A stretch of DNA of 20,895 nucleotides from a virus. The stretch covers positions 1 to 20,895 of IMG/VR virus record IMGVR_UViG_3300008266_008495, one strand, 5' to 3'. This document shows positions 434 through 20,880 of the stretch, in pieces; position 1 is the stretch's first letter; every line of letters begins with the position of its first letter. Under the pieces are notes generated by a model. The model did no database searches. It was not told where the DNA came from and was given only the letters and a program-made list of their open reading frames with translations. Made by a program: the position numbers and the translations under genes.

Positions 434-936
434 TAATCATAGGTGCTGGTGTAGCAGGTATTAATGCTGCTACTAAATTAGTGGATAATGGTTATCCTGG
501 AGAATTAATCACTATTATAGATAAAGGTAATGACCCTCATAACCGCTTACCTGAGGAAGTAATGACAGGTATGCTCGGCGCTGGTGGCTGGAGTGATGGT
601 AAATTAACTTACCACACAGCAATTGGAGGTGTATTATCAAAATACTGTGGTGAGGATAAAGCAATGGAATTAATGGATCAAGTTATATCTAACTTTAGAC
701 GTTTCCATCCTAAACCAGAAGACATATTTTGTTCTGATCCACAAGAAGAACCTGATTTTATTAAACCATATTTTGGATTACGTTTATTCCCAGTATGGCA
801 TATTGGTTCAAATTACCTACATGAAATTGCTAAAGCATGGTATCAATATTTAGTTGATAAAGGTGTGAACTTTATGTGGGAAACAGAGGTAACAAATATA
901 GATTTTGAGACTGGAGAAGCAATATTAAAAGATTAA
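418..936 (+). CDS. FAD-dependent oxidoreductase, N-terminal half (split gene, COG2509-like)
   Basis: This 172-aa ORF is the N-terminal part of an FAD-dependent dehydrogenase of the COG2509 type. It opens with a beta-alpha-beta dinucleotide fold (KIVIIGAGVAGINAA, GxGxxG at residues 9-14) and carries the GAGGWSDGKL signature at 54-63, typical of this family. It stops at TAA 934-936 after a segment (ETEVTNIDFETGEA) where relatives continue into the second Rossmann-like region. That continuation is found as a separate ORF at 2450-3247. Together the halves give about 437 aa, a plausible full length. The stop is clean and part of a TAATATTTATA motif. Whether the two halves form a working enzyme in trans is inference; substrate unknown. 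The ATG overlaps the preceding gene by 16 nt. Confidence 0.8.
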   Translation: MDKKIVIIGAGVAGINAATKLVDNGYPGELITIIDKGNDPHNRLPEEVMTGMLGAGGWSDGKLTYHTAIGGVLSKYCGEDKAMELMDQVISNFRRFHPKPEDIFCSDPQEEPDFIKPYFGLRLFPVWHIGSNYLHEIAKAWYQYLVDKGVNFMWETEVTNIDFETGEAILKD

Positions 937-958: not shown

Positions 959-1339
959 ATGATAAAATTAATAGATCTATTAAATGAATCCCAATACTCT
1001 CAATTAGAATTAACATCAATGGGTAAGTTACTTCTTAATTATCTTAATTCTGATGTTGAATCTGATAAACCTGAAAATTATCATTTATCTTCAAGAGATG
1101 AACAAATACTAATGGATATGGGGATGTATATTGATGGGTTATATGGAGATAATAAATTTTCTAACCTAGATATATTTGCTTTAGATATAGCATCTGGAGA
1201 ATATCAAGATCCACAGTTTGGGAAAAATGAAATTATCAAAAAAATTAATAGAGCTATTCAAAAAGGATGGGTAAAAATAGTACCATATAAGGGTAATCCT
1301 TTTAAAAATAGTGATTATAATGACAATGATGAATATTAA
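959..1339 (+). CDS. Small phage protein with putative capsid-targeting N-terminus
   Basis: This 126-aa protein has no family I recognise. It starts MIKLIDLLNE, a short hydrophobic helix ending in L-N-E. This fits the (L/I)-x-E consensus cut by T4-type prohead proteases and resembles the capsid-targeting peptide of T4 internal proteins. The rest is mixed alpha/beta with an acidic, Asn-rich tail (NSDYNDNDEY). It has its own TATTTATA motif 14 nt upstream. It lies inside the segment that separates the two halves of the FAD oxidoreductase. Inference: a virion internal protein cleaved after residue 10. Confidence is high that it is a gene and low on function. Confidence 0.7.
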   Translation: MIKLIDLLNESQYSQLELTSMGKLLLNYLNSDVESDKPENYHLSSRDEQILMDMGMYIDGLYGDNKFSNLDIFALDIASGEYQDPQFGKNEIIKKINRAIQKGWVKIVPYKGNPFKNSDYNDNDEY

Positions 1340-3258: not shown

Positions 3259-3780
3259 ATGGCTTCACTCCGTATTCTTATTAAAGAATTAATTGAAGAT
3301 TTTATACTCCAAGAAATTGGGGAAGCCAATATTGAGCCTTTTCAATACTCAAAATTATCAGACGTTAAGTATTCTTTTGATTTTGATTATAAAGAAGGAC
3401 ATTTTAATGTTGAAGTTGATTTTGAAAAATTAGATGATATCTATAAGTCATATTATTTTTCTAAAGTACCTAATTTTAAAAATAAAATATTTTATAATAT
3501 AGCTTTTAGTGTTAATGGAGATCAATATAAAGCTTCATCAACAGACCTAAAAACATTATTAAGAATAATGACCACTTTATCTATTATTATTAAAGATTTT
3601 ATCTCAAATATAGATCCTGATGGATTATATATTGAAGCGACAGATAAAGGAGATGACTTAATAAGAGGTAAATATCAAAAATCAGCTACATACCAAGCAT
3701 ATTTAGATAAACAATTAGAAAAATTAACAAATTATAAAGTATATACTAATAGGAATGGGTTAAACATCGCGAAAGTATAA
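3259..3780 (+). CDS. Phage protein with putative capsid-targeting N-terminus, 173 aa
   Basis: No family is recognised. The N-terminus MASLRILIKELIEDFILQE forms an amphipathic helix ending in L-Q-E (residues 17-19), a match to the prohead protease consensus (L/I)-x-E. The rest looks like an alpha/beta domain with alternating hydrophobic strands (YSFDFDYKEGHFNVEVDFEK) and a basic C-terminus. The helix begins at the first Met, which supports ATG 3259. The gene follows the oxidoreductase C-half by 11 nt, with the TATTTATA motif in the gap. Inference: an internal head protein processed after Glu19. Confidence 0.7.
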   Translation: MASLRILIKELIEDFILQEIGEANIEPFQYSKLSDVKYSFDFDYKEGHFNVEVDFEKLDDIYKSYYFSKVPNFKNKIFYNIAFSVNGDQYKASSTDLKTLLRIMTTLSIIIKDFISNIDPDGLYIEATDKGDDLIRGKYQKSATYQAYLDKQLEKLTNYKVYTNRNGLNIAKV

Positions 3781-3817: not shown

Positions 3818-4405
3818 ATGGGAAATTTAGTTCAATTTATTAGATCAATGGTTCAAGAGGAACTATCTGAAATGGCAGCTCCTTCATTTTCAATCAAAGT
3901 GCTTGATCAAGATAAAGCAGAAAGACTTAAAAAATTACACTCAGGCCATTGGGTAGGCAAGTTAATGGACTTAATTATTAAGTCTGGTGAAAATGGTATT
4001 ACTCGTGGTGAAGCAGCTAATGCTTTAGACATCAATCCTATGAAACTTAATGATGAGATTAAAGCTCTTCAAGACAGTGGTATTGTATCTAGAGGTAGAT
4101 TAACACCAGATAAACCAGAAAAAACACCAGGCCAACGTGGTAGAAAATCTAGTGATAAAAGTAGAGCAGGTGTTGTTAGAACTTTATTTCAGAACTTTAA
4201 AGACAATCCTGATTTCACTCCAAGTGAAGATGATGTAACCTATGATATACCTAAAGGTTTAGGAACTGAAAAATTAGGCGATGCTGATGTTGCTAAGATT
4301 AAGAGTTCTGCTTTAGGATTAACTAAACGTGGAAGACCAAAAGTTACACAAGCTGAATCATTACATGAAATGTATTTACGTTTACAAGGTAAACTAAATG
4401 GCTAA
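3818..4405 (+). CDS. Winged-helix / AT-hook protein with putative capsid-targeting N-terminus
   Basis: This 195-aa protein has three parts. Residues 1-18 (MGNLVQFIRSMVQEELSE) are a short amphipathic helix ending in L-S-E, as expected for a cleavable capsid-targeting peptide. Residues about 45-95 read as a winged helix-turn-helix: GITRGEAANALDINPMKLNDE followed by a wing (LQDSGIVSRGRL). The second half has a near-canonical AT-hook (KRGRPK, 170-175) and a weaker one (QRGRKS, 106-111). It is therefore probably a DNA-binding protein carried in the head or acting on phage DNA; this is inference. The last 8 nt overlap the next gene. The same architecture recurs at 10265-11023. Confidence 0.72.
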   Translation: MGNLVQFIRSMVQEELSEMAAPSFSIKVLDQDKAERLKKLHSGHWVGKLMDLIIKSGENGITRGEAANALDINPMKLNDEIKALQDSGIVSRGRLTPDKPEKTPGQRGRKSSDKSRAGVVRTLFQNFKDNPDFTPSEDDVTYDIPKGLGTEKLGDADVAKIKSSALGLTKRGRPKVTQAESLHEMYLRLQGKLNG

Positions 4406-4874
4406 GATTGTAATTTTAAGCTGTACAAAGTCTAAAACAGACCATAGGGCTCCAGCACAGGAGCTCTACTCAGCTTCTCCTATGTTTAGAAAAACATTAG
4501 AATACGGTAAATCACTTGAACCGGACAAAATGTTTATTTTATCTGCTAAACACCATTTAGTTCCTTTAAATAAAGAATTAGATCCTTATGATAAGACTCT
4601 TAAGGAAATACCTAAAGATGAGAAGGAAAAATGGGGAGAAGAAACAATGAAACAGATGAAATCTGCTGGTCTTGATCTTAATAAAGATAAATTTATATTT
4701 TTAACAGGTGGTGAATATTTAAAACCTTTTAGAAATTATATAGCTAATTTGGAAACTCCAATGGAGGGTCGTAGATTAGGTGAGCGACTTAAATGGTTAA
4801 ATAGCCAAATAAGTAAGCTTAATGAAATGTTTAAACGTGTTAAAAAAATTATCCATGAGTGCTTATCTAAATAA
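4398..4874 (+). CDS. DUF6884-like protein
   Basis: This 158-aa protein begins with a hydrophobic strand and a Cys-Lys motif (IVILSCTKSK, 4-13). It continues with APAQELYSASPMF (19-31), ILSAKHHLVPLN (47-58) and DPYDKTL (62-68). This set is what I associate with the DUF6884 family: SCxxxK, PAxxLY, LSAKHGL and PYD motifs. Biochemical function is not established to my knowledge, and I assign none. The usual LSAKHGL is LSAKHHL here. ATG 4398 overlaps the winged-helix gene by 8 nt and the 3' end overlaps the next ORF by 20 nt, so it is embedded in an operon. Confidence 0.72.
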   Translation: MAKIVILSCTKSKTDHRAPAQELYSASPMFRKTLEYGKSLEPDKMFILSAKHHLVPLNKELDPYDKTLKEIPKDEKEKWGEETMKQMKSAGLDLNKDKFIFLTGGEYLKPFRNYIANLETPMEGRRLGERLKWLNSQISKLNEMFKRVKKIIHECLSK

Positions 4875-5085
4875 TTTAATAGACCTATATCTAAATGATA
4901 TAGCTGATTTTGATGATAATAACTTACTAATAGCAGAATCAGTTTTAAAACCAGTTAAACAGCTTCTTACGGAAGGTAAACAAGACGAAGATAAAATATT
5001 ATTAGAAGCATTCCGTAAAAGTACCCCAGAACAAAAAATTATTTTAGAAGACTTTTTACTTTATGTAAGAGAAGGAGAGTTCTAA
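4855..5085 (+). CDS. Hypothetical small acidic protein, 76 aa
   Basis: The frame is open from ATG 4822, but ATG 4855 (MSAYLNNLIDLYLNDIADFD) gives only a 20-nt overlap with the preceding gene and is preferred. The product is acidic and helical, with LLIAESVLKPVKQLLTEGK in the middle and LLEAFRKSTPEQKIILEDFL towards the end. No family is recognised. It is followed one base later by the next ATG, with a good Shine-Dalgarno (AAGGAG, 5072-5077) inside its last codons. Confidence 0.6.
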   Translation: MSAYLNNLIDLYLNDIADFDDNNLLIAESVLKPVKQLLTEGKQDEDKILLEAFRKSTPEQKIILEDFLLYVREGEF

Positions 5086-5086
5086 A

Positions 5087-5419
5087 ATGTCTACTATTAG
5101 AACACCTTTTCAATGGGGAAATGCTAATTTTGCCTATAATACAAACCCATTTCCTAATCAAAGTAAAAATCCATTTACTTGGGATGATGTAGCGTTAATT
5201 ATAACAGTTCTTGAAGGATTAGGTGGAGGTGGTTCTCCTGAGGATCAATTTAAGGATAAGAAAAAACGTAAACAATTCATAACTTTAATAATGAAATGCG
5301 AGGCTATGGATAAAGAATACAAGGAAACCAAAGAAGTCGTGGATCGTCAAATACGTATAACAGACATAGCCTTAGTGGCTAAAGAAGTATTAGGTATTAA
5401 TATTAAAATAGATTTATAA
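5087..5419 (+). CDS. Hypothetical phage protein, 110 aa
   Basis: The start ATG 5087 is set by an AAGGAG Shine-Dalgarno nine bases upstream. The N-terminal 35 residues are Asn/Pro/aromatic-rich and probably extended (FQWGNANFAYNTNPF). Then comes a hydrophobic helix (WDDVALIITVLEGLGGGG) with a Gly run, and a charged helical C-terminus (KKRKQFITLIMKCEAM onward). No family is recognised. Its TAA overlaps the next ATG (TAATG at 5417-5421), indicating coupled translation and perhaps a shared assembly with the 188-aa product. A structural role would fit the neighbourhood but is inference. Confidence 0.68.
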   Translation: MSTIRTPFQWGNANFAYNTNPFPNQSKNPFTWDDVALIITVLEGLGGGGSPEDQFKDKKKRKQFITLIMKCEAMDKEYKETKEVVDRQIRITDIALVAKEVLGINIKIDL

Positions 5420-5985
5420 TGTATACATTATTTACTGATAAAACTGAGCTTTTTGAATGTAATATTAAATTAGAAGGAGCATCACTTAAAAACAGTCAAG
5501 CTCGTCTAATTATCGAATCAGAAGACATCAATCTTTTATTTAAAGGACAAATTACTACAGATGGTAAATGTATTATACCAATTAAAAAATTAAAAGGTCT
5601 ATTAGAAGGCAGCACAAAAGGTGAAATAAAACTTGAAGTTATAGCAGATGATACGTATTTTACACCTTGGAAATCAGAATTTATAGTTGAAGCATCTAAA
5701 AAATTAACTGTTGAAGTTAAATCTCAAGATGCAGATCTTATAACTGAAAGTGCTCCTAAAGTTCAAGTTAGTGGAATTAAAGAAACAATTGATCCTATAA
5801 CAGAACATATAGTTAAATTAGTTAAATTATTGATTAAAGAAGATGTTAACTTAAATAATTTAAGCATTAAAAAAGACAAAGTAAATAATATTATAGCAAC
5901 TTATATTAAAGATAATCCTATTCAAGAAACACAATTATCCGAAGTTATAGATGGAATAATCAGCAAGTTGCCTAAAACAAAATAA
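5419..5985 (+). CDS. Hypothetical phage protein, 188 aa, beta domain plus helical tail
   Basis: The first ~95 residues look like a beta-sandwich: alternating strands such as FECNIKLEGASL, ARLIIESEDINLLFKGQI and GEIKLEVIADDTYFTPWKSEF. A linker (AGEs such as VKSQDADLITESAPK) leads to a helical C-terminus that includes HIVKLVKLLIKEDVNLNNL. No family is confidently recognised. It is coupled to the preceding gene by a TAATG overlap and sits 6 nt before the first fibre-like gene, so a virion or assembly role is plausible but unproven. Confidence 0.68.
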   Translation: MYTLFTDKTELFECNIKLEGASLKNSQARLIIESEDINLLFKGQITTDGKCIIPIKKLKGLLEGSTKGEIKLEVIADDTYFTPWKSEFIVEASKKLTVEVKSQDADLITESAPKVQVSGIKETIDPITEHIVKLVKLLIKEDVNLNNLSIKKDKVNNIIATYIKDNPIQETQLSEVIDGIISKLPKTK

Positions 5986-5991
5986 TAAGTT

Positions 5992-6582
5992 ATGGCAGGA
6001 CCGTTTGATTTAACAGGTCAAAATATAGAGAATACCTATCAAAGGATTCTACAAACGCCTGATGGAACTAATTTTTACGACGGTACCGGCTCAGCAGTAA
6101 CTTTCACAGCTACAGCAGTAGCGGGAGGACAAAACTCTCAAATTCAATTTAATAGTGGAAGTACATTAAGTGGCTCATCTAACTTTTCTTTTGATTATAC
6201 TAACAATAGGTTAATTTTAACTGGGAGTCTTTATGTTACTAATAGCATATATTTAGGTAATTCATCCGCTCCTTCTCTTAATACTACTATATATACTGCC
6301 TCTATAACACCAGGTAGTTATATTTTATATTCATTTCCTACTTCTTCATATGATGGTTTTTGGTTTGAATACACAGTTAGATCAGGTTCAAATGCAAGAG
6401 CAGGACAAATGATGGGCATTTGGAGTGGAAGTGACGTACATTACACAGAAACAACAACAACAGATTTTGGTACTACAACTGATATATCTTTTATGTCTAC
6501 AGTTTTAGCAGGTAATATGATAATATCAAGTTCAATAACAACAGGTGGATGGACAATAAAAGGTATTATAAGATCTATATAA
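5992..6582 (+). CDS. Virion structural / fibre-like protein, 196 aa
   Basis: This Ser/Thr/Gly/Asn-rich protein is typical of phage fibres and baseplate decorations. Residues 47-83 (QNSQIQFNSGS... to LTGSLYVT) match residues 47-83 of the 935-aa protein encoded next, at the same distance from the N-terminus, so the two share a module. The C-terminal 110 residues are beta-rich (GSYILYSFPTSSYDGFWFEY; RAGQMMGIWSGSDV) and end in GGWTIKGIIRSI. No catalytic motif is seen. Inference: a small virion surface or fibre protein that may be partner or evolutionary offshoot of the larger fibre. Confidence 0.7.
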   Translation: MAGPFDLTGQNIENTYQRILQTPDGTNFYDGTGSAVTFTATAVAGGQNSQIQFNSGSTLSGSSNFSFDYTNNRLILTGSLYVTNSIYLGNSSAPSLNTTIYTASITPGSYILYSFPTSSYDGFWFEYTVRSGSNARAGQMMGIWSGSDVHYTETTTTDFGTTTDISFMSTVLAGNMIISSSITTGGWTIKGIIRSI

Positions 6583-6589
6583 TTTAACA

Positions 6590-6597
6590 TATTTATA
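6590..6597 (+). promoter_or_regulatory. TATTTATA intergenic motif, copy 5
   Basis: AACATATTTATAATTAACC lies in the 44-nt gap between the two fibre-like genes; 29 nt separate it from ATG 6627. An AAAGG Shine-Dalgarno-like stretch (6614-6618) lies between motif and start, so a promoter plus leader layout is consistent here. Confidence 0.55.
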
Positions 6598-6626
6598 ATT
6601 AACCTGGACAGTGAAAGGTAAACAAT

Positions 6627-9434
6627 ATGGCTAATGAATTTGTAATAAAAAATGGGTATATTTCTAAAGGAAATTCCCAATTAAGTGGCTCTTTAGATGT
6701 TAGTGGAAGCATTTCAGCTTCATTAGGAGCAAACACAGTAGGATTTTATACAACTCCAGGTGGTTTAAACACTCAAATCCAATTTAATAGCGCAAGTGTA
6801 TTTAGTGGTAGTTCAAATTTAACATTTGATTATAGTAATAATACATTAAAGTTAACTGGTAGTTTAGTCACAACTGGTTCAAATACATTTATTGGTACTC
6901 AAATAATAAGTGGCTCAATTAACTTTGGAGACGGCAGTAAAATTCAATCAATATCAGCTAGTTCAGGTGATGGTGGAGGATACACAACATTAACATTAAA
7001 ACCAGATACAAGCATATTATCTGACCAATATATAGTATTAGATCCAACATCACCTAACCATATCCATATTCGTGCTGGCGGTGTGATAGATTCATCAAGT
7101 GCTTATTTATATTTAGGTGGTGAAAAAGCAAATGTAGTTGTACAAAATTTAGATGGTTCTTTTAATGAAAAATATTGGGTTCAAATAAATGCCCAAACAG
7201 GTTCAACCCAATATACTTGGACCTTTGATGACGATGGGACTCTATTAGTCCCAGGTGATATAACAGGAGCCGGAAACTTAGCAACGACTGGTTCAAATAC
7301 ATTTATTGGTACTCAAATTATAACAGGAAGTTTACTAACAACCGGCTCAAACATATTCATTGGTACACAAACTGTAACCGGTAGTTTATTTACAACTGGT
7401 TCTAATACTTTAGTAGGTAACACAATATTATCTGGTACCCTACAGATACAAGGTGAATACCCACCAGAAGCAGGTTCTGCATCAGTTTCTATTGTTGGTA
7501 ATGTAGATTTAAATGGCTTTTTAAGATTTGACCCAGTAACATCAAACATTGACACAACAATATCTGCCTCATACATCTATGTATCGGGTTCAACAAATGA
7601 CTTATATTTTTCACAAAATGGTGTAGGATATACTAACACAACACGTTTACGCTGGATAGAAGGTAATTTATATACTGGTTTATTACATGGTGGTTTAATT
7701 ACAACACAGTCATCTACAATATACCAAGTAGGTAGTGGTAGTGGTATTATTGTAGACCTTAATGCATCAATTGGTGATGATCCATATCCTACAATACAAT
7801 TTTTAGAATGGAATAATTTAACCAATACTATTGATGCTTTAAGTGGATCATTTGATCAACAGTTTGTAGCAATATCCTCCTCAGCAGGTACAGCAGTAAT
7901 TAAAGCACAAGGAACACCATATGTTGATGGTGATTATAATGATTTTATTCCAATTGGTATTGTACTTCATCAAAACAGATCTACAATAAATGGTGTTCAA
8001 ACTTTCCCTGGTGTAGCATATGGATGGAAGCAAAGATCTTTTGATTTTATTAAAGCATTTGGAGCATTAAAAATTTCAGGATATGCTTTAACACCAAGTG
8101 GATCTTCAACAGGAAGTTTAGTATTAAGTGGTGGCACATCTTGGGTAGATGGTAGAAATTATGTAGTTGATCCTAACCAACCAAGCTATATTGTAGAAGC
8201 AACAGGTATAACTACTTCTAAAATATTTAGATACTACCAATCAGGATCTAATTGGCAATCAAATTGGGGTTACAATACAAATGGAGGAGCTGGTTATGCT
8301 ACAATAGATCCATCCCAATATTCAAACGCGGGTACATTAACACCTGTAGGTTCTAATAAATGGACTATACAAAGAGTATATTATTTTCCTAATAGTGCAA
8401 CAAAGGCATTATTTGTTTATTATGGAAATGCTGAATACGCCAATGAAGCAGATGCATTAGCAGCAGTAACTACTGAACCATTTACCGAAGCTCCTAATAC
8501 AGCCGCCAGCTCCATTTATGTTGGTTATATGATATTAAGAAATGATGCTAATTTTACAGTACCCGCGTCATATGAATTTTATCAAGCAGGGTTATTTAGA
8601 GGGTCCGGTACTGGTGGTGCTGGTGGAGGTGGAGCATCTACATTAGCAGGATTAACAGACGTATCCATCTCAACCCCAGCAAATGGTGATTTGTTAATAT
8701 ATAATGGAGGAACAAATCTTTGGAATAACACAAAAACATTATCAGGAAGTTATACATTATCTGGTTCATTAACAACAGATGATGGAGTATCAGTTATTAA
8801 TTTAACAGCATCTTTTGTAAGTGCCTCTTCTATCACAGGTTCATTATTCGGTACAGCTAGTTACGCTTACACCGCTTCTTATTTAGATGGAGATAGTATT
8901 GTTATTAATAATAATGCTAATAATTCTATACTCACAGCCACAGGTAATGCTGATACATTAGATGCTGAATCCAATTTACAATTTGACGGATCAATTTTAA
9001 CATTAACCGGAAATCAAATTACAGTTGGAAATCAATCTATAACAGGTTCACTACTAGTATCAGGATCTTCAACATTTACAAACATAGGCCCAGCTGTATT
9101 TAGTGGTAGTGTTAATGTAACTAATGGTATAACAGGAAGTCTTTTTGGTACAGCTAGTTATGCTTATACTGCCTCCTATGTTAATGGGATGATTACAAAA
9201 AATAACGCTGTAGCTGGTGGAACTTTTGCTGGTAATCCTAAAAAAGCAACAGTTACATTTGCCACACCATTCCCAAATGCTAGTTATAGTGTGACTGTAA
9301 CTGGTGAAGAAGCAAGATCATGGATTATTGAATCTAAAGTATCGGGTAGTTTTATTATAAATTCTAATAGTAATACTGCTTTAGCAAATAGTGTTTATTG
9401 GCAAGCTATTAGTTATGGAGAATTTAATCAATAA
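6627..9434 (+). CDS. Large repetitive tail-fibre / adhesin-like protein, 935 aa
   Basis: This is the longest gene in the window, with fibre-like composition throughout. Residues 47-83 are shared with the preceding 196-aa protein. Short repeats of the form TTGSNTFIGTQIITGSL occur once near residues 82-98 and three more times in tandem near 221-270. A Gly-rich hinge (GGAGGGGAS, about 664-672) precedes LAGLTDVSISTPANGDLL, a common phage structural motif. TGSLFGTASYAYTASY appears twice (8835-8882 and 9132-9179). The C-terminal ~80 residues (ATVTFATPFPNASYSVTV; then SWIIESK, SNTALANSVYWQA) look like a compact beta domain seen at fibre tips. Likely role: host recognition or virion surface. A weak hairpin follows the stop. 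Confidence 0.8.
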   Translation: MANEFVIKNGYISKGNSQLSGSLDVSGSISASLGANTVGFYTTPGGLNTQIQFNSASVFSGSSNLTFDYSNNTLKLTGSLVTTGSNTFIGTQIISGSINFGDGSKIQSISASSGDGGGYTTLTLKPDTSILSDQYIVLDPTSPNHIHIRAGGVIDSSSAYLYLGGEKANVVVQNLDGSFNEKYWVQINAQTGSTQYTWTFDDDGTLLVPGDITGAGNLATTGSNTFIGTQIITGSLLTTGSNIFIGTQTVTGSLFTTGSNTLVGNTILSGTLQIQGEYPPEAGSASVSIVGNVDLNGFLRFDPVTSNIDTTISASYIYVSGSTNDLYFSQNGVGYTNTTRLRWIEGNLYTGLLHGGLITTQSSTIYQVGSGSGIIVDLNASIGDDPYPTIQFLEWNNLTNTIDALSGSFDQQFVAISSSAGTAVIKAQGTPYVDGDYNDFIPIGIVLHQNRSTINGVQTFPGVAYGWKQRSFDFIKAFGALKISGYALTPSGSSTGSLVLSGGTSWVDGRNYVVDPNQPSYIVEATGITTSKIFRYYQSGSNWQSNWGYNTNGGAGYATIDPSQYSNAGTLTPVGSNKWTIQRVYYFPNSATKALFVYYGNAEYANEADALAAVTTEPFTEAPNTAASSIYVGYMILRNDANFTVPASYEFYQAGLFRGSGTGGAGGGGASTLAGLTDVSISTPANGDLLIYNGGTNLWNNTKTLSGSYTLSGSLTTDDGVSVINLTASFVSASSITGSLFGTASYAYTASYLDGDSIVINNNANNSILTATGNADTLDAESNLQFDGSILTLTGNQITVGNQSITGSLLVSGSSTFTNIGPAVFSGSVNVTNGITGSLFGTASYAYTASYVNGMITKNNAVAGGTFAGNPKKATVTFATPFPNASYSVTVTGEEARSWIIESKVSGSFIINSNSNTALANSVYWQAISYGEFNQ
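6873..7439 (+). repeat. TTGSNTFIGTQ coding repeats in fibre gene
   Basis: A 32-nt stretch starting ACTGGTTCAAATACATTTAT at 6873-6904 is repeated identically at 7287-7318, inside a 17-residue protein repeat. Two more diverged units follow immediately (TTGSNIFIGTQTVTGSLF and TTGSNTLVGNTILSGTLQ). The exact DNA identity of the two distant copies suggests recent duplication or gene conversion within the fibre gene. Confidence 0.75.
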
Positions 9435-9449
9435 AAAAGCTTGGCTTTT
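9435..9449 (+). terminator. Weak hairpin after the fibre gene, possible terminator
   Basis: Immediately after the TAA of the 935-aa gene, AAAAGC-TTG-GCTTTT can form a 6-bp stem with a 3-nt loop, followed by ATGACTTTTT. It has only two G-C pairs, so termination would be weak or factor-assisted. It is one of the few non-coding gaps in the window, which supports a transcription-unit boundary here. Confidence 0.35.
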
Positions 9450-9482
9450 ATGACTTTTTAAGTTATATTAAAAATAAAAGTT

Positions 9483-9710
9483 ATGGAATTAAATAAAATT
9501 AAAAGGTATAAGTCACCTGATGGTACCGTCCGTTATGTTAGTGACAATAAATTACATAATCCTGAAGGTCCTGCTCTAATTCATCCTGATGGAAAAGAAG
9601 AGTATTATTTATTTGGTATTTTTTATACTAAAGATGACTTTAAAAAAGTTAAAAAAGATGGTACTGGTTTACCTTGGTATAAAACAGGAGCAGCTAAAAT
9701 GAGACATTGA
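9483..9710 (+). CDS. Small HNxxGPA-motif phage protein, 75 aa
   Basis: This short protein has the pattern G-x-x-R-Y-V-S-D-N-K-L-HNPEGPALIHPDG-x-x-E-YYLFG. It matches small phage proteins with HNxxGPA or YLNG-type repeats, which are common in T4-like genomes and have no firm function. It ends in a basic tail (WYKTGAAKMRH). The next gene starts one base after its stop, so the two are co-transcribed. Confidence 0.7.
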   Translation: MELNKIKRYKSPDGTVRYVSDNKLHNPEGPALIHPDGKEEYYLFGIFYTKDDFKKVKKDGTGLPWYKTGAAKMRH

Positions 9711-9711
9711 T

Positions 9712-10242
9712 ATGAAGATTGGATTTTGTGGAACAGTAAGTGTAGGCAAAACTACACTAGTAAACGCTTTAAAAGAATTACCTGAATTTAAAGACTATAA
9801 GTTTGCTACTGAGCGAAGTAAGTATTTAAGAGATTTAGGAATACCTTTAAACACAGATAGTACATTAAAAGGTCAAACTATATTCTTAGCTGAACGATGC
9901 TCAGAATTACTTCATGAAAATGTTATAACTGATAGAACAGTTATAGATGTAATGGCGTTTACTTTTTGTGCTGAGTCTATAGATATTTTTGATAAAGATG
10001 GGTTTGAAGAATATGCTTCTAAGTTTATTGAGGAATATGATTGGATATTTTATGTTAGTCCTGCTGGTGTTGCTATTGAAGATAATAATGTTCGCACTAC
10101 TAATGTAGATTATAGAAATCAAATAGATGATATGATTAAATACATCTGCTCTTCTAATTTAGATAAAATAGGGAATTTCGGAATAATATCAGGATCTACT
10201 GAGGATAGGTTAAAACAAATAAAATCTTATCTAGGTCTGTAA
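9712..10242 (+). CDS. P-loop ATPase/kinase, NadR/AAA_28-like
   Basis: This 176-aa protein starts with a canonical Walker A (GTVSVGKTT, residues 7-15) after a hydrophobic strand. A conserved FATERSKYLRDLGIP segment follows, then a TIFLAERCSELL helix, a Walker-B-like VITDRTVIDVMAF (D74, R75) and a hydrophobic strand (WIFYVSP). The order and spacing match NadR-type nucleotide kinases and the AAA_28 family. A role in nucleotide or NAD metabolism during infection is possible. The substrate cannot be read from the sequence, and no NMN-adenylyltransferase domain is fused. The stop TAA is the first part of the next TAATATTTATAA motif. Confidence 0.75.
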   Translation: MKIGFCGTVSVGKTTLVNALKELPEFKDYKFATERSKYLRDLGIPLNTDSTLKGQTIFLAERCSELLHENVITDRTVIDVMAFTFCAESIDIFDKDGFEEYASKFIEEYDWIFYVSPAGVAIEDNNVRTTNVDYRNQIDDMIKYICSSNLDKIGNFGIISGSTEDRLKQIKSYLGL

Positions 10243-10250
10243 TATTTATA
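10243..10250 (+). promoter_or_regulatory. TATTTATA intergenic motif, copy 6
   Basis: CTGTAATATTTATAACAAAA: the motif overlaps context with the preceding stop codon (TAA 10240-10242) and lies 14 nt before ATG 10265. Copy 7 has the same downstream ACAAAAAC context. Confidence 0.55.
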
Positions 10251-10264
10251 ACAAAAACTATTCA

Positions 10265-11023
10265 ATGAAACGTAAAGACCTATATAGTTATATCCGTGAG
10301 GAAATTATAGAAACACTATCTGAAATAGATGTTGATAAAGCAGCTGGAGCTGTAGTTGTTAAAAAAGGAACACCAGCATCTGCCCCACCAGAAATCAAAA
10401 AATATACAACTCAAGGTATTGATGTTAATGTGGTAGCTGAAGAAGATATTGACGAAGCTCGTAAAGCAGGTGGTTACAAAATAGGTGACACAGGTAAATT
10501 TGCTGAAGCTAAAGAATTATATGGCGCGGGTCTTTATGCTGATGTATTAAAAGCAATTGAAGAAGCAGGTGAGGATGGTCTTACTCAAAAAGATTTAGGA
10601 GCTAAATTAGGTAAAGGTGATGGTTCATCTCTTAATTTTATTTTAAATAAATTTAAAGCTATTGGAGTATTAGGTGGAGGTAAATTAGCAGCGGCTGAAA
10701 AACCATCTAAAGTAGCTCCTGAGGTTGAACCTGAAGCAGATGATGAAGACACAACTCCTGAAGAAAAACCACAAGTCACTACTGATAAAGAAATTAAAAA
10801 AATAGCAGGTGATATTGATACTGGAAAAAGCAGTGAGCTTAATAAAGCAATTAATGTTATTAAAAATGTAACTGACAAACTCCAAAATATGAAGTCTGGA
10901 TCAAAAGAATATAATGACAAAATGATCGCATTAAGACAATATATTGGTAAAAATAAAAATCTTCTTAGAGGACAAGATATTAGTTTATTGACTAAGAAAC
11001 TTATAGGAGGTGGAGAAATATAA
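10265..11023 (+). CDS. Winged-helix protein next to terL; putative capsid-targeted protein or small terminase
   Basis: This 252-aa protein begins with MKRKDLYSYIREEIIETLSE, an amphipathic helix ending in L-S-E (18-20), as in the capsid-targeting peptides of this window. Residues about 88-140 form a winged-helix candidate (DGLTQKDLGAKLGKGDGSSL then FKAIGVLGGGKL). An acidic Pro/Glu linker (150-175) leads to a helical C-terminus (176-250). Position immediately before terL, with a 1-nt overlap, is where T4 has the small terminase gp16, so TerS is an alternative. Against that, the leader peptide and resemblance to the protein at 3818 suggest a packaged DNA-binding protein. It carries the Shine-Dalgarno for terL in its last codons. 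Confidence 0.72.
   Translation: MKRKDLYSYIREEIIETLSEIDVDKAAGAVVVKKGTPASAPPEIKKYTTQGIDVNVVAEEDIDEARKAGGYKIGDTGKFAEAKELYGAGLYADVLKAIEEAGEDGLTQKDLGAKLGKGDGSSLNFILNKFKAIGVLGGGKLAAAEKPSKVAPEVEPEADDEDTTPEEKPQVTTDKEIKKIAGDIDTGKSSELNKAINVIKNVTDKLQNMKSGSKEYNDKMIALRQYIGKNKNLLRGQDISLLTKKLIGGGEI
11005..11012 (+). promoter_or_regulatory. Strong Shine-Dalgarno site for terL
   Basis: AGGAGGTG is a full-length anti-16S match 10 nt before ATG 11023. It lies within the last codons (GGG) of the upstream gene, fixes the terL start and couples its translation to the upstream gene. It contrasts with the A-rich, SD-poor leaders of several other genes here. Confidence 0.75.
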
Positions 11024-12594
11024 TGTCGCAAGACTTAAAACAAATAATAAGAGAAGAATACGTAAAGTGCGCTCATGACCCGGCGCACTTTATGCGTAAG
11101 TATTGTCATATTCAACATCCACAACGTGGGCGAGTAATTTTTAATCTTTATCCATTTCAAAGTAAAGTATTAACATTATGGAGAGATAATCCATACTCTG
11201 TTGTTTTAAAATCTAGACAGTTAGGTATTTCAACATTAGCGGCTGGTTATTCTTTATGGTTAATGTTATTCCATAAAGATAAAAACGTATTATGTTTAGC
11301 TACTAAACAAGAAACAGCTAAAAACATGGTAACTAAAGTACGTTTTATGTACGATAATTTACCATCTTGGCTTAAATTACCAGCAGATGAAAATAATAAA
11401 TTAAGTTTAAAACTAAATAATGGTTCTCAAATCAAAGCAGTATCCGCAGCTGGTGATGCAGGTCGATCTGAAGCTGTATCTTTACTTATAGTTGATGAAG
11501 CAGCATTTATTGAGAATATAGGTGAAATTTGGGCTTCTGCTCAACAAACCTTAGCAACAGGTGGTGGTGCTATTGTATTATCTACTCCATATGGTACTGG
11601 TAATTGGTTTCATCAAACCTGGGTAAAAGCAGAATCACAAGAAAATGACTTTTTACCTATTAAATTACCTTGGTATGTTCATCCTGAACGAGATGAGACT
11701 TGGAGAAAACGCCAAGATGAATTACTAGGTGACCCTAGACTAGCAGCTCAAGAATGTGACTGTGATTTCACAACATCAGGAGATGTAGTTTACTACCCAG
11801 AACATTTGGAGTATATGATGACTACTCACGTTTGCGAACCTATGGAACGTAGAGGAATAGATAAAAATTTATGGATTTGGGAATCACCAGATTATACTAG
11901 GAATTATATGGTGATAGCAGATGTAGCTAGAGGTGATAGTAAAGACTTTTCTGCATTTCATATATTTGATGTTGAAACTAATGCACAAGTAGCTGAATAT
12001 AAAGGACAATTACCACCTAAAGAATTTGGTTATATGTTAGTAGGTATAGCCTCTGAATATAATGAAGCATTATTAGTAGTAGAAAATAATAATATTGGAT
12101 GGGCAACATTAGATGCTATTCAAGAAAGAAATTATAGGAATCTCTATTATTCACCAAAGAGTGATACCCCACTTTCTGATTCGTATTTTAGTCAATATGA
12201 AGATCACTCTAAAATGATACCTGGTATTACTATGAATTTAAGGAATCGTCCTTTAATTATTAATAAGGGTAGAGAGTATTTTGGTGATCATAGTGTTATA
12301 ATTAGATCAAAAAGATTAATTGAAGAAATGAAAGTTTTTATTTGGAGAAATGGTAGAGCTGAAGCACAAGCTGGATATAACGATGATTTAGTTATGTCTT
12401 ATAGTACCGCTATGTATCTTAGAGACACTGCTTTAAAAAATAAAACACAAGGAATTGAATTAACTAAAGCAACAATAAATAATATATCAAAACCAGCTCA
12501 ATATCAAGGAGCATATTTCGCTACAGGTAAAGATAACCCATATCATATGCCTACAAACAATGGTGGAACTGAAGATATTAGTTGGTTACTTTAA
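11023..12594 (+). CDS. terL: Terminase large subunit (T4 gp17-like)
   Basis: This is the DNA-packaging motor ATPase and headful nuclease. The N-terminus (REEYVKCAHDPAHFMRKY; HPQRGRVIFNLYPFQ) is typical of gp17 proteins. The ATPase shows a Walker A position at 64-71 (SRQLGIST), Walker B plus catalytic Glu at 154-159 (LLIVDE) and the coupling motif LSTPYG at 186-191. The RNase H-like nuclease has D300 (IADVARGDS), E354 (VVENN) and D454/D455 (YNDDLV). The length, 523 aa, is slightly below T4 gp17 (610). The usual Walker A Lys (GKT/S) is Ile69 here, leaving Lys63 or Arg65 as the nearest basic residues. Start ATG 11023 is fixed by AGGAGGTG. The portal gene follows after 11 nt, with no tail genes between. 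Confidence 0.95.
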   Translation: MSQDLKQIIREEYVKCAHDPAHFMRKYCHIQHPQRGRVIFNLYPFQSKVLTLWRDNPYSVVLKSRQLGISTLAAGYSLWLMLFHKDKNVLCLATKQETAKNMVTKVRFMYDNLPSWLKLPADENNKLSLKLNNGSQIKAVSAAGDAGRSEAVSLLIVDEAAFIENIGEIWASAQQTLATGGGAIVLSTPYGTGNWFHQTWVKAESQENDFLPIKLPWYVHPERDETWRKRQDELLGDPRLAAQECDCDFTTSGDVVYYPEHLEYMMTTHVCEPMERRGIDKNLWIWESPDYTRNYMVIADVARGDSKDFSAFHIFDVETNAQVAEYKGQLPPKEFGYMLVGIASEYNEALLVVENNNIGWATLDAIQERNYRNLYYSPKSDTPLSDSYFSQYEDHSKMIPGITMNLRNRPLIINKGREYFGDHSVIIRSKRLIEEMKVFIWRNGRAEAQAGYNDDLVMSYSTAMYLRDTALKNKTQGIELTKATINNISKPAQYQGAYFATGKDNPYHMPTNNGGTEDISWLL

Positions 12595-14515: not shown

Positions 14516-15373
14516 ATGCTTATAAAACATTCAAAATTTAAGAATACAGGTATTCTCTTTGAATTATTAGTAAGGCAGATAACATCCGACACTTTATCGG
14601 GTAAATCCTCAGAAGCCACGGGTATTCTTAAAAAGTTTTTCAGTAAAACTGAATTAGGACGCGAATATAAATTATATGAAAGTTTATTAAAGCGTACTAA
14701 TTTAACTGAAGGGAAAGCTGAAATTATAATCAATACTATCTTAGAAAGCTCCAAGCAATTAAACCGCTCAGCTCTTAAAAGACAAAAGTATAATTTAATT
14801 AATGAAATTAAAAAATATTATAATTTAGAGGACTTTTTTAAAAGTAAATTACCTAACTATAAGGCTCAAGCCTCAATCTATACTTTAATTGAAGCCTATA
14901 ATAGTGAGAAAAAAGTGTTTCATGAGCAAACAATTTCAAATAAATTAGTTTTACTTGAACATTTAACTTCATTAACATCAAAACCAAAAGAATCTAATGA
15001 TGAAGTAATAAATGAATTTTCTACTTATGACAAAGATACTCGTATCTTAACATATAAAATTTTATTAGACAAATTCAACAGTAAATACTCAGACTTTAGT
15101 AATACTAAAAAAACAATTCTTAAAGAGTTTATTAATAGTGTAGATAACACAAGTAAACTTAAAGAATTTTATAATACTAAAATTGGTGATTTCAAAAATG
15201 AACTTGTTAAATTAAATAAAAAAACTAAAAATGAAGTTACCAAAATTAAAATCAATGAGGTAACTAATTTATTACTTGAGTTAGGAAAAAATGATAAAGT
15301 AACTAATGATAATATAGTTAATTTATTACAATACTGTGATTTAATTGAAGAACTTAAATCAGTAAATGGATAA
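14516..15373 (+). CDS. Conserved T4-like phage protein between portal and protease, 285 aa
   Basis: The product opens HSKFKNTGILFELLVRQI followed by TSDTL and a KKFFSKTELGREYKLYE segment. I recall this N-terminal pattern (KFKNTGxLFELLVRQI) from hypothetical proteins near the capsid genes of marine T4-like phages. The whole protein is helical and Lys/Asn/Glu-rich with many coiled-coil-like stretches. In T4 this position holds the small core proteins gp67 and gp68, so a prohead core or head-completion role is plausible, but I see no direct homology to them. The 3' end overlaps the next gene by 8 nt. Confidence 0.72.
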   Translation: MLIKHSKFKNTGILFELLVRQITSDTLSGKSSEATGILKKFFSKTELGREYKLYESLLKRTNLTEGKAEIIINTILESSKQLNRSALKRQKYNLINEIKKYYNLEDFFKSKLPNYKAQASIYTLIEAYNSEKKVFHEQTISNKLVLLEHLTSLTSKPKESNDEVINEFSTYDKDTRILTYKILLDKFNSKYSDFSNTKKTILKEFINSVDNTSKLKEFYNTKIGDFKNELVKLNKKTKNEVTKIKINEVTNLLLELGKNDKVTNDNIVNLLQYCDLIEELKSVNG

Positions 15374-15890
15374 ACCTAATTTAAATAAACTTAAAGAAGT
15401 AGTACTCAAAAAGTTAAAAGAAATGAGTGCTACTGGCGCTGGAGCAGGTGCTGGTACTTTCACTCCTGGCTCTGGAGCTCAATATGCTACTCCTTATGCT
15501 TTTAATCCTAATAAAAAAGCTAAAGGAGCCCAAAATATTTATTATTATAAGTTAGGTTGGAAACCAGTAAATGCTAAAAAGCTTCATAAAGCTTCTAAAA
15601 CTATAGATCATAAAGATTTATGGAAAAAGAAATTAGAAGAAGAAGCAACTGACACTTACATTAATAATCTTAACTTAACTGATCCTGCTTTATCACAATT
15701 TATAGAAAAAAGAGTAAGTGATTTTGATAAAATAGAAGATAAATTAAACACTTTACTCCCTCTATTAAAACAAGCTAAAGCACAAACAATGGAGTACTAT
15801 AAAAATTCTCCAGACTTTAAAATACAGTATGGTACCGATTTAGCAGTTGATTATTTAGACGACATCATTAAACTCTTCAATAAAAAATGA
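15366..15890 (+). CDS. Putative prohead/internal protein with capsid-targeting N-terminus, 174 aa
   Basis: The protein begins with a basic amphipathic helix (MDKPNLNKLKEVVLKKLKE) ending in L-K-E at 17-19, a good site for the prohead protease. Directly after it comes a flexible Gly/Ala run (TGAGAGAGTFTPGSGAQYAT, 23-42), then an aromatic segment (AQNIYYYKLGWKPVN) and a helical C-terminal half. The design, leader then cleavage site then flexible linker, suits an internal head or prohead core protein. It overlaps the previous gene by 8 nt and the next by 4 nt (ATGA), inside the portal-protease interval. Confidence 0.72.
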   Translation: MDKPNLNKLKEVVLKKLKEMSATGAGAGAGTFTPGSGAQYATPYAFNPNKKAKGAQNIYYYKLGWKPVNAKKLHKASKTIDHKDLWKKKLEEEATDTYINNLNLTDPALSQFIEKRVSDFDKIEDKLNTLLPLLKQAKAQTMEYYKNSPDFKIQYGTDLAVDYLDDIIKLFNKK

Positions 15891-17423: not shown

Positions 17424-18035
17424 ATGAAATCCTTATTAATAGAGACTCGCCCATTTAGTATATCACCAGTTGCTCTTACTGAAGGTAAGAGTGTGAATGG
17501 TAATCCTTTAGTTGAAGGTATTCTAGCTACTTGTGAAGTAAAAAACGGAAATGGTAGATACTATGCTAAAGATTTATGGGAAAGAGAAATTAATAAGTAT
17601 ATGACTTTAGTTAAAGAAAGAAGAGCATGTGGTGAATTAGATCATCCTGACTCTCAAGTAATTAACTTAAAAAATGTATCACATAATATATCAAGCATTT
17701 GGTGGGACGGAGATAACATTATGGGTAAAATAGAAATTTTACCAACTCCATCAGGTAATATTTTAACAGCTTTAATAGGATCAGGTATTAAAGTAGGGGT
17801 TTCATCTCGCGGAATGGGAAGCCTAAAACAAGTAGGTGAAGTATTAGAAGTACAAGATGATTTTGAACTATTATGTTGGGATTTTGTAAGTACACCTTCA
17901 AATCCAGGCTCATTTATGACTCCATTAAATGAAGGTCAATCATCTCCTATTAATCCTTATGGTAGAGTAAATTCTATAGTGACAGAAATTTTATGTGCTA
18001 ACCATATTAAGCGTATTTCCAAATTAAAAACTTAA
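17424..18035 (+). CDS. Prohead core protease (T4 gp21-like, peptidase S77)
   Basis: This is the serine protease that matures the prohead by cutting scaffold, capsid and internal proteins after (L/I)-x-E. ATG 17424 gives 203 aa (T4 gp21 is 212); an upstream in-frame ATG at 17376 lies inside the preceding gene and is rejected. Catalytic candidates are His74 in GELDHPD, Ser127/128 in VGVSSRGMGS and Asp153 in CWDFVSTPSNPG. Its own sequence has consensus sites near both ends: L-T-E at 18-20 (before GKSVNG) and L-N-E at 168-170 (before GQSS). Self-trimming to about residues 21-170 is thus expected. It is followed after 6 nt by the scaffold gene. Confidence 0.93.
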   Translation: MKSLLIETRPFSISPVALTEGKSVNGNPLVEGILATCEVKNGNGRYYAKDLWEREINKYMTLVKERRACGELDHPDSQVINLKNVSHNISSIWWDGDNIMGKIEILPTPSGNILTALIGSGIKVGVSSRGMGSLKQVGEVLEVQDDFELLCWDFVSTPSNPGSFMTPLNEGQSSPINPYGRVNSIVTEILCANHIKRISKLKT

Positions 18036-18041
18036 GGAAAA

Positions 18042-19163
18042 ATGGCAACAAACAGAGATTTGCTTAAAGAAGCAATCGCAGATGCTAAAGCTGTTAAAGA
18101 AACTGCTATCGCAAATGCAAAAGCTGCTTTAGAAGAAGCATTTACTCCCTACCTCAAGGAAAAATTATCTGCTAAATTACAAGAAATGGAAGATAATGAA
18201 ACTGAGTTAGAAGAAAGTGAAGTTTCTGAAGTAGAAAAAGAAAAGAAAATGGAAGAAGCAAAGAAAGAAGAAGACATGACCGAAGAAGTTTCTTTAGATG
18301 AACTATTAGCTGAATTAGAAGAATCTGATGACATGGACGAAACGTACATGGAAGAAGATGTTTATGAAGCTAAAGGTGAAGAAGAAGAAATGTCAATCGA
18401 AGATATGTCTGAAGATGATCTTAAATCTTTCATTGAAGATGTAATTAAAGACATGGTATCAGCTGGTGAATTAGAAGCTGGCGAAGAAGGTGAAGAAGAA
18501 GTTGATATGGATATGGAAGCAGGCGCTGAAGAAGAGCTTGACGAAGTTTTCAATATTGATGAACTCTTAGCTGAAATGGAAAAAGAAGAATCTCTAGAAG
18601 AGAAAAAAGAAAAAGAAAAAATGGAAGAAATTGAAATTGGCTCTGATGTTTATTTAAATCAAGCTGAAACAATCCTAGCTGTTCTTAGTACTCTTGGTAT
18701 AGTAGGCGCAGCCGCTCTAGCCACAGATGAAATCAGAACTGGTTTAGCTAATGCTCTTAAAAAGGGTAAAAAAGCAGCAGCTGATTTTATTAAAGGTTTA
18801 AAAGGTAAAACTGCTGAAACTCAAGAAATGGAAGAACAATTAAATGAACTTCGTAATGAATTAAATGAAGTAAATTTATTGAACGCTAAACTTCTTTACA
18901 CTAACAAAATCTTCCGCAACAAGTCTTTAACTGAATCACAAAAGGTAAAGGTTTTAACTGCGTTTGATAAAGCAACAACTAAAAAAGAAGTTGAACTTGT
19001 TTATGAAACTTTAGTAGAAGGCTTAAAAACAACTACAAAAGCTCCTATTAAAGAATCATTAGGTTCTGCCTCTAAAGTATTAGGTGGTGCTACATCAAAA
19101 CCAATCATTGAGAACGATGCTTTCGCTCGTATGCGTGAGTTAGCGTTTGGTGGTAACAAATAA
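18042..19163 (+). CDS. Prohead scaffold / core protein (T4 gp22-like)
   Basis: The internal scaffold assembles with the capsid protein and is then digested. Residues 1-40 are a helix (MATNRDLLKEAIADAKAVKE) with an L-K-E site at 8-10. Residues about 45-200 are extremely acidic (long Glu/Asp runs with Met). The C-terminal third (about 262-325) holds the recognisable gp22-type coiled coil: ELRNELNEVNLLNAKLLYTN then SLTESQKVKVLTAFDKA. Unusually, a hydrophobic stretch (TILAVLSTLGIVGAAALA, 210-227) followed by a cationic helix (LANALKKGKKAAADFIKGLK, 235-254) is inserted before the coiled coil. AAGGA four nt before ATG serves as RBS. Directly between protease and major capsid genes, as in T4. Confidence 0.9.
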   Translation: MATNRDLLKEAIADAKAVKETAIANAKAALEEAFTPYLKEKLSAKLQEMEDNETELEESEVSEVEKEKKMEEAKKEEDMTEEVSLDELLAELEESDDMDETYMEEDVYEAKGEEEEMSIEDMSEDDLKSFIEDVIKDMVSAGELEAGEEGEEEVDMDMEAGAEEELDEVFNIDELLAEMEKEESLEEKKEKEKMEEIEIGSDVYLNQAETILAVLSTLGIVGAAALATDEIRTGLANALKKGKKAAADFIKGLKGKTAETQEMEEQLNELRNELNEVNLLNAKLLYTNKIFRNKSLTESQKVKVLTAFDKATTKKEVELVYETLVEGLKTTTKAPIKESLGSASKVLGGATSKPIIENDAFARMRELAFGGNK

Positions 19164-19209: not shown

Positions 19210-20880
19210 ATGAGTTCAATTCAATCATTACTCGAATCAGCTAATCCCTGGAAATCGCTTCAAGGCGATGCTGCCAAATTAGCTTCCAAGTGGTCCAAGA
19301 CGGGCTTACTTGAAGGCTTTGGTTCAGAGGTTGAGCGCAATAATATGGCTCTTATCCTTGAAAATCAAGCAAAACAATTAGTAGTAGAAGCTAGCCAAAC
19401 TGGTGCTTCTCCAACCGCAGGTACATTTACTGTAGGTCAATCTGAAAACTGGGCTGGTATTGCTCTTCCATTAGTACGTAAAGTATTTGGACAAATCGCC
19501 GCAAAAGAATTTGTTAGTGTACAGCCAATGAATTTACCTTCTGGTCTTGTATTCTTCCTTGACTTCCAATATGGAACTACTAAGAATCCATTCACTTCTG
19601 GTGATTCTATGTATGGTGCTCGTAATCCATTAGGTCAATTCCCATTCCAAACTACTGGCACTACTGGTGGTTTATATGGGGCTGGTCGTTTTGCTTACTC
19701 CACTAACCAATTTACTGCTTCTGCTGTAACAGTTACAGCAGCTTCAGCTTCTTGGGCTGAAGTAGGATTTGATTCTGATTTATCAGCATCAGCAGCTGCT
19801 GGTAGTATTAAGAAATTAACTATAGGTACTGCTTCATTATCAGCTTTTGATCCAGATGCAGTTCGTGGATTTATTATTACTTCAGGTTCAGTGTCTGTAG
19901 CTGATAATCTTTCCGCATTCCATGCTTATAATTATACTGCTGGTCAGATCAATTTCTTTGTTACGGCTTCTACTGCTGAAATCCCAACTTTAACAACAGC
20001 ATTTACTGTCTTCTATAATAAAATTACAGCTGATAATAATCGTGGTGATTTTGAAGATGGACAAACATTTAGTACAAATACTGCGGTTGGTGCTACAGGT
20101 ACTACAATCTCTATTCCTGAAGTTAATATCAAGATGCAATCTCAAGCTATTGTTGCTAAGACTAAAAAGTTAAAAGCAGTGTGGACGCCTGAATTCGCTC
20201 AAGATTTGAACGCTTACCAGAATATTGATGCTGAAGCTGAATTAACTAACATCATGAGCGAATACATTTCTATGGAAATTGACCTCGAAATTCTTGATAT
20301 GTTAATTGAAGATGCTGCTGCTGGTACTGAATACTGGTCTGTAAATAATAACACTTTCTTTGATGCTGCTACTTCAACTTTAGTTGAAAGATCAGTAGCT
20401 GGCGGTGGATATTACAACACTCAAGGCGGTTGGTTCCAAACTCTTGGAACTAAAATGCAGAAGATTTCTAACAAGATTCACCAATTAACCCTCCGTGGTG
20501 GTGCAAACTTCTTAGTATGTTCTCCTACCGTAGCTACTGTACTCGAATCAATCCCAGGTTTTGCCGCTAACACTAATGGTGATGCTGCTAACATGGAATA
20601 TGCTTTCGGTGTTCAGAAAGTTGGTGCTATCAATAACCGCTATACCGTTTATAAGAATCCATATATGACTGAAAACGTTATTTTAATGGGATTCCGTGGT
20701 AAGCAGTTCCTTGAGTCTGGTGCCGTATTCGCTCCATATATTCCGTTGATCATGACTCCTCTTGTGTACGATCCAAATACCTTCACTCCACGTAAAGGTT
20801 TGATGACTCGTTACGCTAAGAAGATGTTACGTCCGGAATTCTATGGTAAGATCTATGTTAGTGGTTTAAATACCCTCTAA
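19210..20880 (+). CDS. Major capsid protein (T4 gp23-like)
   Basis: This protein forms the hexamers of the head shell. The 556-aa product aligns with gp23 features: an N-terminal delta region (NPWKSLQGDAAKL; RNNMALILENQAK), a cleavage site at V-V-E60 before ASQTG (T4 cuts after Glu65), then VGQSENWAGIALPLVRKVFG and FVSVQPMNLPSGLVFFLDFQYG in two parts (76-95, 101-122). After a Ser/Thr/Ala-rich insertion (about 165-295) the core resumes with KLKAVWTPEFAQDLNAYQNI and IMSEYISMEIDLEIL. It ends APYIPLIMTPLVYDP and TRYAKKMLRPEFYG. Codon use here has more C-ending codons (TTC, AAC, ATC) than neighbouring genes, as expected for the most abundant virion protein. Confidence 0.95.
   Translation: MSSIQSLLESANPWKSLQGDAAKLASKWSKTGLLEGFGSEVERNNMALILENQAKQLVVEASQTGASPTAGTFTVGQSENWAGIALPLVRKVFGQIAAKEFVSVQPMNLPSGLVFFLDFQYGTTKNPFTSGDSMYGARNPLGQFPFQTTGTTGGLYGAGRFAYSTNQFTASAVTVTAASASWAEVGFDSDLSASAAAGSIKKLTIGTASLSAFDPDAVRGFIITSGSVSVADNLSAFHAYNYTAGQINFFVTASTAEIPTLTTAFTVFYNKITADNNRGDFEDGQTFSTNTAVGATGTTISIPEVNIKMQSQAIVAKTKKLKAVWTPEFAQDLNAYQNIDAEAELTNIMSEYISMEIDLEILDMLIEDAAAGTEYWSVNNNTFFDAATSTLVERSVAGGGYYNTQGGWFQTLGTKMQKISNKIHQLTLRGGANFLVCSPTVATVLESIPGFAANTNGDAANMEYAFGVQKVGAINNRYTVYKNPYMTENVILMGFRGKQFLESGAVFAPYIPLIMTPLVYDPNTFTPRKGLMTRYAKKMLRPEFYGKIYVSGLNTL

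Follow-up and report, generated by a model that had tools for sequence, protein, structure and literature searches.

Two winged-helix proteins as candidate prohead cargo in a fragment of a T4-like phage

Why two predicted DNA-binding proteins of a phage should both begin with short, seemingly removable leaders is the question raised by IMG/VR record IMGVR_UViG_3300008266_008495, whose positions 1 to 20,895 (20.9 kb; "the window" hereafter) encode winged-helix proteins that we designate 3818 and 10265 after the first nucleotides of their open reading frames (ORFs). The window, with 31% GC as AT-rich as a first-pass annotation had assumed, represents part of the genome of an uncultured T4-like phage from water: besides terL and a portal gene (starting at 12606), it carries genes for a gp21-type protease, a gp22-like scaffold and a gp23-like capsid protein, the protease and the capsid protein being identified by profile and the scaffold by position and tail only (Table 1). 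Judged by TerL, the named phage most similar to it is the cultured Flavobacterium phage immuto (59%), followed by Microcystis phage Mel-JY01 (52%); the nearest longer contig is a 76-kb sibling. The analysis described below suggests that 3818 and 10265 are probably prohead-core cargo: DNA-binding proteins that the gp21-type protease would cut and that would leave the head along with the genome.

Leaders and cleavage junctions

Experiments with T4 established that propeptides of 10–19 residues direct proteins to the core of the prohead and that L/I-x-E is the sequence after which gp21 cuts (PMC9026906); among diverse internal proteins only this capsid-targeting sequence (CTS) is conserved (PMC3012670). 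The T4 internal proteins IPII and IPIII start with MKTYQEFIAE/A and IPI has ITE/A at residue 19 (a slash marks the actual or predicted cut throughout). The leaders of 3818 and 10265, here termed class 1, end in the same kind of site, and matches to the class-1 position-specific scoring matrix (PSSM) as high as that of 3818 are expected approximately zero times in shuffled sequences. In a set of 1303 unique ORFs, drawn from related loci as well as the window, a regular expression for the leader matched 57, compared to 4.4 with shuffled N-termini, and the density of matches was 4.07 per 1000 sequence windows at residues 1–10 versus 0.21 per 1000 past residue 60, an approximately 20-fold difference. 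With the PSSM, three related contigs had 3–7 tagged ORFs each, where about 0.1 would be expected, and 46 of 63 loci have a leader ORF in the 3 kb upstream of terL. Behind these tags, the mature parts fall into 35 clusters (by single linkage, a rough measure), indicating many unrelated proteins. In named phages, the class-1 leader with its junction had no match at E-values up to 10.

The junctions are conserved along with the leaders. The sequence (L/I)xE/MA is present in all 15 aligned members of the 3818 family, for which a wider scan yielded 20 loci. In the 10265 family, E64, located just in front of (M)AR and the winged helix, hardly ever changes, and the spacer that precedes it varies in both length and sequence; the key processing site of 10265 is, to judge by this pattern, probably the second one, IDE64/AR. 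The capsid protein bears on the protease as well: its site QLVVE/A aligns with E65 of T4 gp23, and [LIV]xE occupies this position in 20 of 20 rows of the alignment, so that the protease specificity appears to be conserved. An additional leader protein, at 15366, lies where T4 encodes the core proteins gp67 and gp68 (T4 order 20-67-68-21-22-23).

The spacer of 10265 and the same region of loci L006, L008, L010 and L015 represent no fewer than four interchangeable propeptide modules, each some 40 amino acids long; most end in a strand-like ...GxDVxVxE. In L025, L033, L036 and L037, ORFs of 62–67 amino acids located just upstream of terL consist of leader and propeptide only and stop where the mature domain of their relatives would begin. 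Between the leader gene and terL, L011–L024 and L058–L086 have small inserted ORFs that resemble membrane or signal-peptide proteins and may encode spanins. The N-terminus of TerL itself, LKQIIREEY, is similar to the leaders and lacks the LxE end; we treated this resemblance as a coincidence.

Class 1 is not the only leader type. A minimal leader of the MIKLIDLLNE type (class 4) starts 27 ORFs, compared to 0.49 in shuffled sequences. Class-4 examples besides that in the window are L129 9175-9978, L137 14757-15581, L018 543-989 and L097 3366-3806; the 27 ORFs are unrelated and include two with zeta-toxin-type kinase domains (Pfam E-value of about 1e-16). In addition, one of them has a weak match of the ADP-ribosyltransferase-like kind and one is kinase-like by eye. 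A third type, MENFDLKKFLVENKLT, is found on four immuto proteins, including the product of the gene immediately upstream of terL (L097 17631-18931, immuto genes 194 and 195; L095 1803; L097 3806).

The combination of a leader ending in (L/I)xE, gp21-, gp22- and gp23-type genes and unrelated cargo points, at the level of sequence features, to membership in the class of CTS systems. As in the T4 internal proteins, a short N-terminal leader with (L/I)xE at the prohead protease site precedes unrelated mature proteins, and counterparts of gp21, gp22 and gp23 are present in the window phage. Unlike in T4, the leaders come in several classes (about 10 or 18–20 amino acids), some with two sites and interchangeable propeptide modules, and the mature parts include winged-helix and AT-hook proteins that are unrelated to the internal proteins. 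The layout and the site match those of the T4 CTS (MKTYQEFIAE), whereas there is no clear homology at the level of individual residues. In phage P1, the N-terminal signal of DarB is enough to bring a reporter inside the capsid (PMC9024508). DarB thus shares an N-terminal capsid-targeting signal with the proteins described here, whereas the P1 head is of a different type and there is no scaffold-tail tag of the kind discussed below. The latter difference follows from P1 not being known to have a separate scaffold.

Winged-helix domains and AT-hooks

AlphaFold2 models of both proteins contain a three-helix bundle with a wing, in agreement with the fold proposed in the first-pass annotation. In structural comparisons using VIA-align, the best matches were to the winged helix of RPC39 (Z-scores of 9.6 and 8.4), followed by MarR, LexA and MntR (Z-scores of about 6); since a common arrangement can yield such scores, they support the winged-helix fold only jointly with the models and with weak helix-turn-helix matches in curated families. 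The latter were below threshold in Pfam (E-values of 0.04–0.2), with none in NCBIfam, and neither model had a Foldseek match in PDB reaching an E-value of 0.001. The layout given for the two proteins in that annotation (leader, (L/I)SE, spacer, winged helix, charged tail) is borne out except for its last element in 10265, where the "charged tail" consists of an acidic linker and a predicted helical hairpin whose only structural matches are generic helical ones. The linker differs by an in-frame length of 10 amino acids between 10265 (10265-11023) and its counterpart in L004 (10001-10789), although the two contigs are near-identical.

The two winged helices are homologous. With 3818 as query, phmmer retrieves several proteins encoded upstream of terL (E-values of 5e-10 to 3e-6), and comparison of the 3818 and 10265 family profiles gave a probability of 99.3% and an E-value of 7.7e-21, the probability rising to 99.7% once the leaders were removed. 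The profile alignment begins exactly at the xxE/(M)A(R) junction and extends through the winged helix. Together with the models, these observations indicate that the common layout reflects common descent of the mature domains combined with the same type of leader.

The mature 3818 protein is basic (pI 9.5), and its family retains two GR[PK] hooks in 15 of 15 aligned members. The KRGRPK AT-hook that had been pointed out previously is thus present and conserved, and it is accompanied by a second, hook-like motif, QRGRK, at residue 108. More generally, [KR]GRP is enriched in leader proteins (10 of 97 versus 17 of 2049; p 1e-7, an optimistic value given that the sequences are related). The leader proteins with this motif include those encoded upstream of terL in L061, L070, L074 and L083, in which the middle part is unlike the winged helix of 10265 and 3818.

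A tail shared by the scaffold and its putative cargo

In relatives of the window phage, the gp22-like scaffolds end in PIIE/NDAFARMRELAGLKK, ILE/VNDQFARWQMLAGIKK and similar sequences. The same tail motif, F.RM(Q/R).LAG (class 2), serves as the N-terminal leader of some 20 other ORFs, for example, MNKEFLKMQKLAGLITE/S and MKKQILSEEFKRMQKLAGIITE/S, and is C-terminal on further cargo, against 0.1–0.2 occurrences expected from shuffled sequences. The tag is separated from the cargo by [LI]xE in 20 of 21 N-terminal cases, where the site follows the tag, and in 21 of 25 C-terminal cases, where it precedes the tag; the background frequency is 11%. Relatives of 3818 end in a scaffold-type tail as well (LNE/SFIRMQKIAGIIK; pattern LNE/SFxRMQKIAGIIK), and nearly all of the 15 aligned members bear a tag at both ends. 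An apparent polyprotein in L146 (727-1659) consists of an AT-hook winged-helix protein, LxE, the tag, LxE and a second cargo. Among named phages, the class-2 leader was found in the immuto phages only, and the MQxLAG motif is absent from the scaffold C-termini of T4 and P-SSM4. In the open literature, we found neither a scaffold-tail tag nor bipartite tagging described, nor any paper containing the tag strings.

Processing at both ends has a precedent in T4 Alt, a packaged, host-acting protein that is cut by gp21 at its two termini (PMC9026906). Alt is an ADP-ribosyltransferase, whereas the 3818 family comprises predicted DNA binders with a C-terminal propeptide that matches the scaffold tail.

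Given that both proteins have seemingly removable T4-type address tags and that one subfamily has the scaffold tail, it is probable that 3818 and 10265 enter the head together with the DNA and are injected with it. The earlier suggestion of packaged, phage-delivered DNA-binding proteins thus gains strong comparative support from the CTS-like leaders, the conserved gp21-type sites and the scaffold tail motif on 3818 relatives, the packaging itself being the part that we infer. A broader proposal, which we put forward tentatively as somewhat short of probable, is that the scaffold C-terminal tail has in this clade become a portable, protease-removable sorting tag, functional at either end of a protein, separated by (L/I)xE and loading many unrelated proteins into the prohead beside two to three other leader classes, and that the AT-hook/winged-helix proteins are chromatin-like effectors delivered with the genome.

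Alternatives, proposed route and implications

Could the tagged proteins instead be structural factors of the prohead core, comparable to gp67 and gp68, that are degraded at maturation and never delivered, their DNA binding being incidental? The sharing of tags with the scaffold and with the 15366 protein, as well as the propeptide-only ORFs upstream of terL, would fit such a role. However, the conserved winged helix and the two AT-hooks imply selection on DNA binding past the cleavage junction, and the cargo behind identical tags is very diverse; we consider this explanation unlikely.

A second possibility, raised in the first-pass annotation, is that 10265 is the small terminase subunit (TerS), with the winged helix recognizing DNA, the hairpin mediating oligomerization and the gene translationally coupled to terL in the manner of T4 gp16/gp17. 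The gene does adjoin terL as had been noted, its stop codon overlapping the terL start, and the modeled combination of winged helix and helical hairpin is reminiscent of how TerS proteins are generally built; in position immediately before terL, helical segments and a role in DNA recognition, 10265 is like gp16. Moreover, the TerS profiles PF11053 and phrog_445 had no match in eight related contigs, immuto and Mel-JY01, although the T4 control was detected, so that the homologue elsewhere in the genome that would have argued against this assignment was not recognized in the clade and the TerS slot is vacant. Nevertheless, 10265 itself matches none of the TerS families (PF11053, phrog_735, phrog_445), comparison of its profile with five gp16 sequences using hhalign was negative (probability of about 0.1%), and the profile of short-form relatives, which match 10265 over the leader and propeptide only, showed no similarity to gp16 either. 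In many relatives, small ORFs intervene between the leader gene and terL, the two being adjacent in the window and its close relatives, and some of the relatives encoded upstream of terL consist of leader and propeptide only or may have no winged helix. The winged helix of 10265 has a second copy elsewhere, in 3818, and a removable CTS-like leader, which is foreign to gp16, makes little sense on a terminase. We therefore regard the assignment of 10265 as TerS as improbable.

That the two proteins are intracellular transcription regulators of the phage, with the N-terminal amphipathic helix serving in dimerization or partner binding and having no link to the capsid, would agree with winged-helix folds being typical of regulators but does not account for unrelated proteins having the same leaders, for the scaffold-tail motif or for the conserved (L/I)xE junctions, and is very unlikely.

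Under the cargo interpretation, the N-terminal amphipathic leader would dock the tagged precursors of 3818 and 10265 to the gp22-like prohead core, with the 3818 family docking also via its C-terminal copy of the scaffold tail motif. The gp21-type protease would then cut the (L/I)xE sites, releasing approximately residues 19–184 of 3818, with the winged helix and two AT-hooks, and approximately residues 65–252 of 10265, with the winged helix, acidic linker and helical hairpin. The mature DNA binders would remain with the packaged genome, leave the head together with it and act immediately on AT-rich DNA of the host or the phage, which they would regulate, silence, compact or shield. Docking, cleavage, ejection and the nature of the target DNA are all steps that we infer.

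Several observations weigh against this interpretation. The 3818 protein has no close relative except on the sibling contig, and its own scaffold-type tail is degenerate; the first leader site is gone in several relatives of 10265; and in most members, P3 of the capsid-protein site is occupied by Val instead of Leu or Ile. DNA binding by 3818 and 10265 is predicted from the modeled fold and the hooks only. The motif classes were defined post hoc and the loci are related, so that the statistics overstate independence, and a literature search turned up neither virion proteomics nor cleavage data on any relative.

The features discussed here are listed in Table 1. Outside of them, window positions 418-936 and 2438-3247 look like two pieces of one FAD-type oxidoreductase with ORFs inserted between them, including a GIY-YIG-like one at 1668, whereas relatives have a single ORF of 437–457 amino acids; the oxidoreductase gene has possibly been split by a mobile endonuclease.

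Table 1. Features of the window; slashes mark predicted cleavage sites.
Feature	Coordinates	Strand	Basis or remark
Minimal 10-aa class-4 leader protein, MIKLIDLLNE/SQYS	959..1339	+	Length equals that of T4 IPII/IPIII CTS
Leader-type ORF, MASLRILIKELIEDFILQE/IGE/ANIE	3259..3780	+	Leader regular expression match; under PSSM cut-off
AT-hook winged-helix protein (3818)	3818..4405	+	195 aa
Class-1 leader of 3818, MGNLVQFIRSMVQEELSE, residues 1-18	3818..3871	+	Predicted cleavage LSE18/MAAP; PSSM 27.4
Winged-helix domain of 3818, residues 22-97	3881..4108	+	AlphaFold2 pLDDT ~86; fold matches, Z up to 9.6; homologous to that of 10265
First AT-hook-like motif, QRGRK region, residues 105-110	4130..4147	+	GR[PK] at 108; relatives KGRPTSE at 110
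Second AT-hook, TKRGRPKV, residues 168-175	4319..4342	+	[RK]RGR[PK] in 15/15 family members
Diverged scaffold-tail tag, LHE/MYLRLQGKLNG, C-terminus of 3818	4361..4402	+	Motif of relatives; scaffold C-terminus
Winged-helix protein upstream of terL (10265)	10265..11023	+	252 aa; stop overlaps terL ATG at 11023
Class-1 leader of 10265, MKRKDLYSYIREEIIETLSE, residues 1-20	10265..10324	+	Ends in LSE20; PSSM 31.5
Hypervariable propeptide module of 10265, residues 21-64	10325..10456	+	Second predicted site IDE64/ARKAG
Winged-helix domain of 10265, residues 71-140	10475..10684	+	AlphaFold2 pLDDT ~90; fold matches
C-terminal helical hairpin of 10265, residues 186-229	10820..10951	+	AlphaFold2 pLDDT ~90
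Terminase large subunit, gp17-like (terL)	11023..12594	+	Pfam and PHROG matches
Leader protein between portal and protease, LKE/MSATGAGAG	15366..15890	+	PSSM 19.1; kept in relatives
Prohead core protease, gp21 type (Peptidase_S77)	17424..18035	+	Pfam PF03420, E 6.7e-30; PHROG head maturation protease
gp22-like scaffold, tail PIIE/NDAFARMRELAFGGNK (class-2 motif)	18042..19163	+	Precedes capsid gene; tail kept in relatives listed
Major capsid protein, gp23-like, QLVVE/ASQTG	19210..20880	+	PHROG 138; alignment to T4 E65 cleavage site

The proteins injected by uncultured T4-like phages are largely unknown, and most of the genes concerned are annotated as hypothetical. If the tags are real, dozens of unannotated proteins of this clade, including winged-helix/AT-hook binders and putative kinases, become predictable head cargo, and the tail held in common with the scaffold suggests a simple docking rule for cargo loading. 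Should the broader proposal of a portable scaffold-tail tag be true, the injected proteome of uncultured phages would be readable from sequence.

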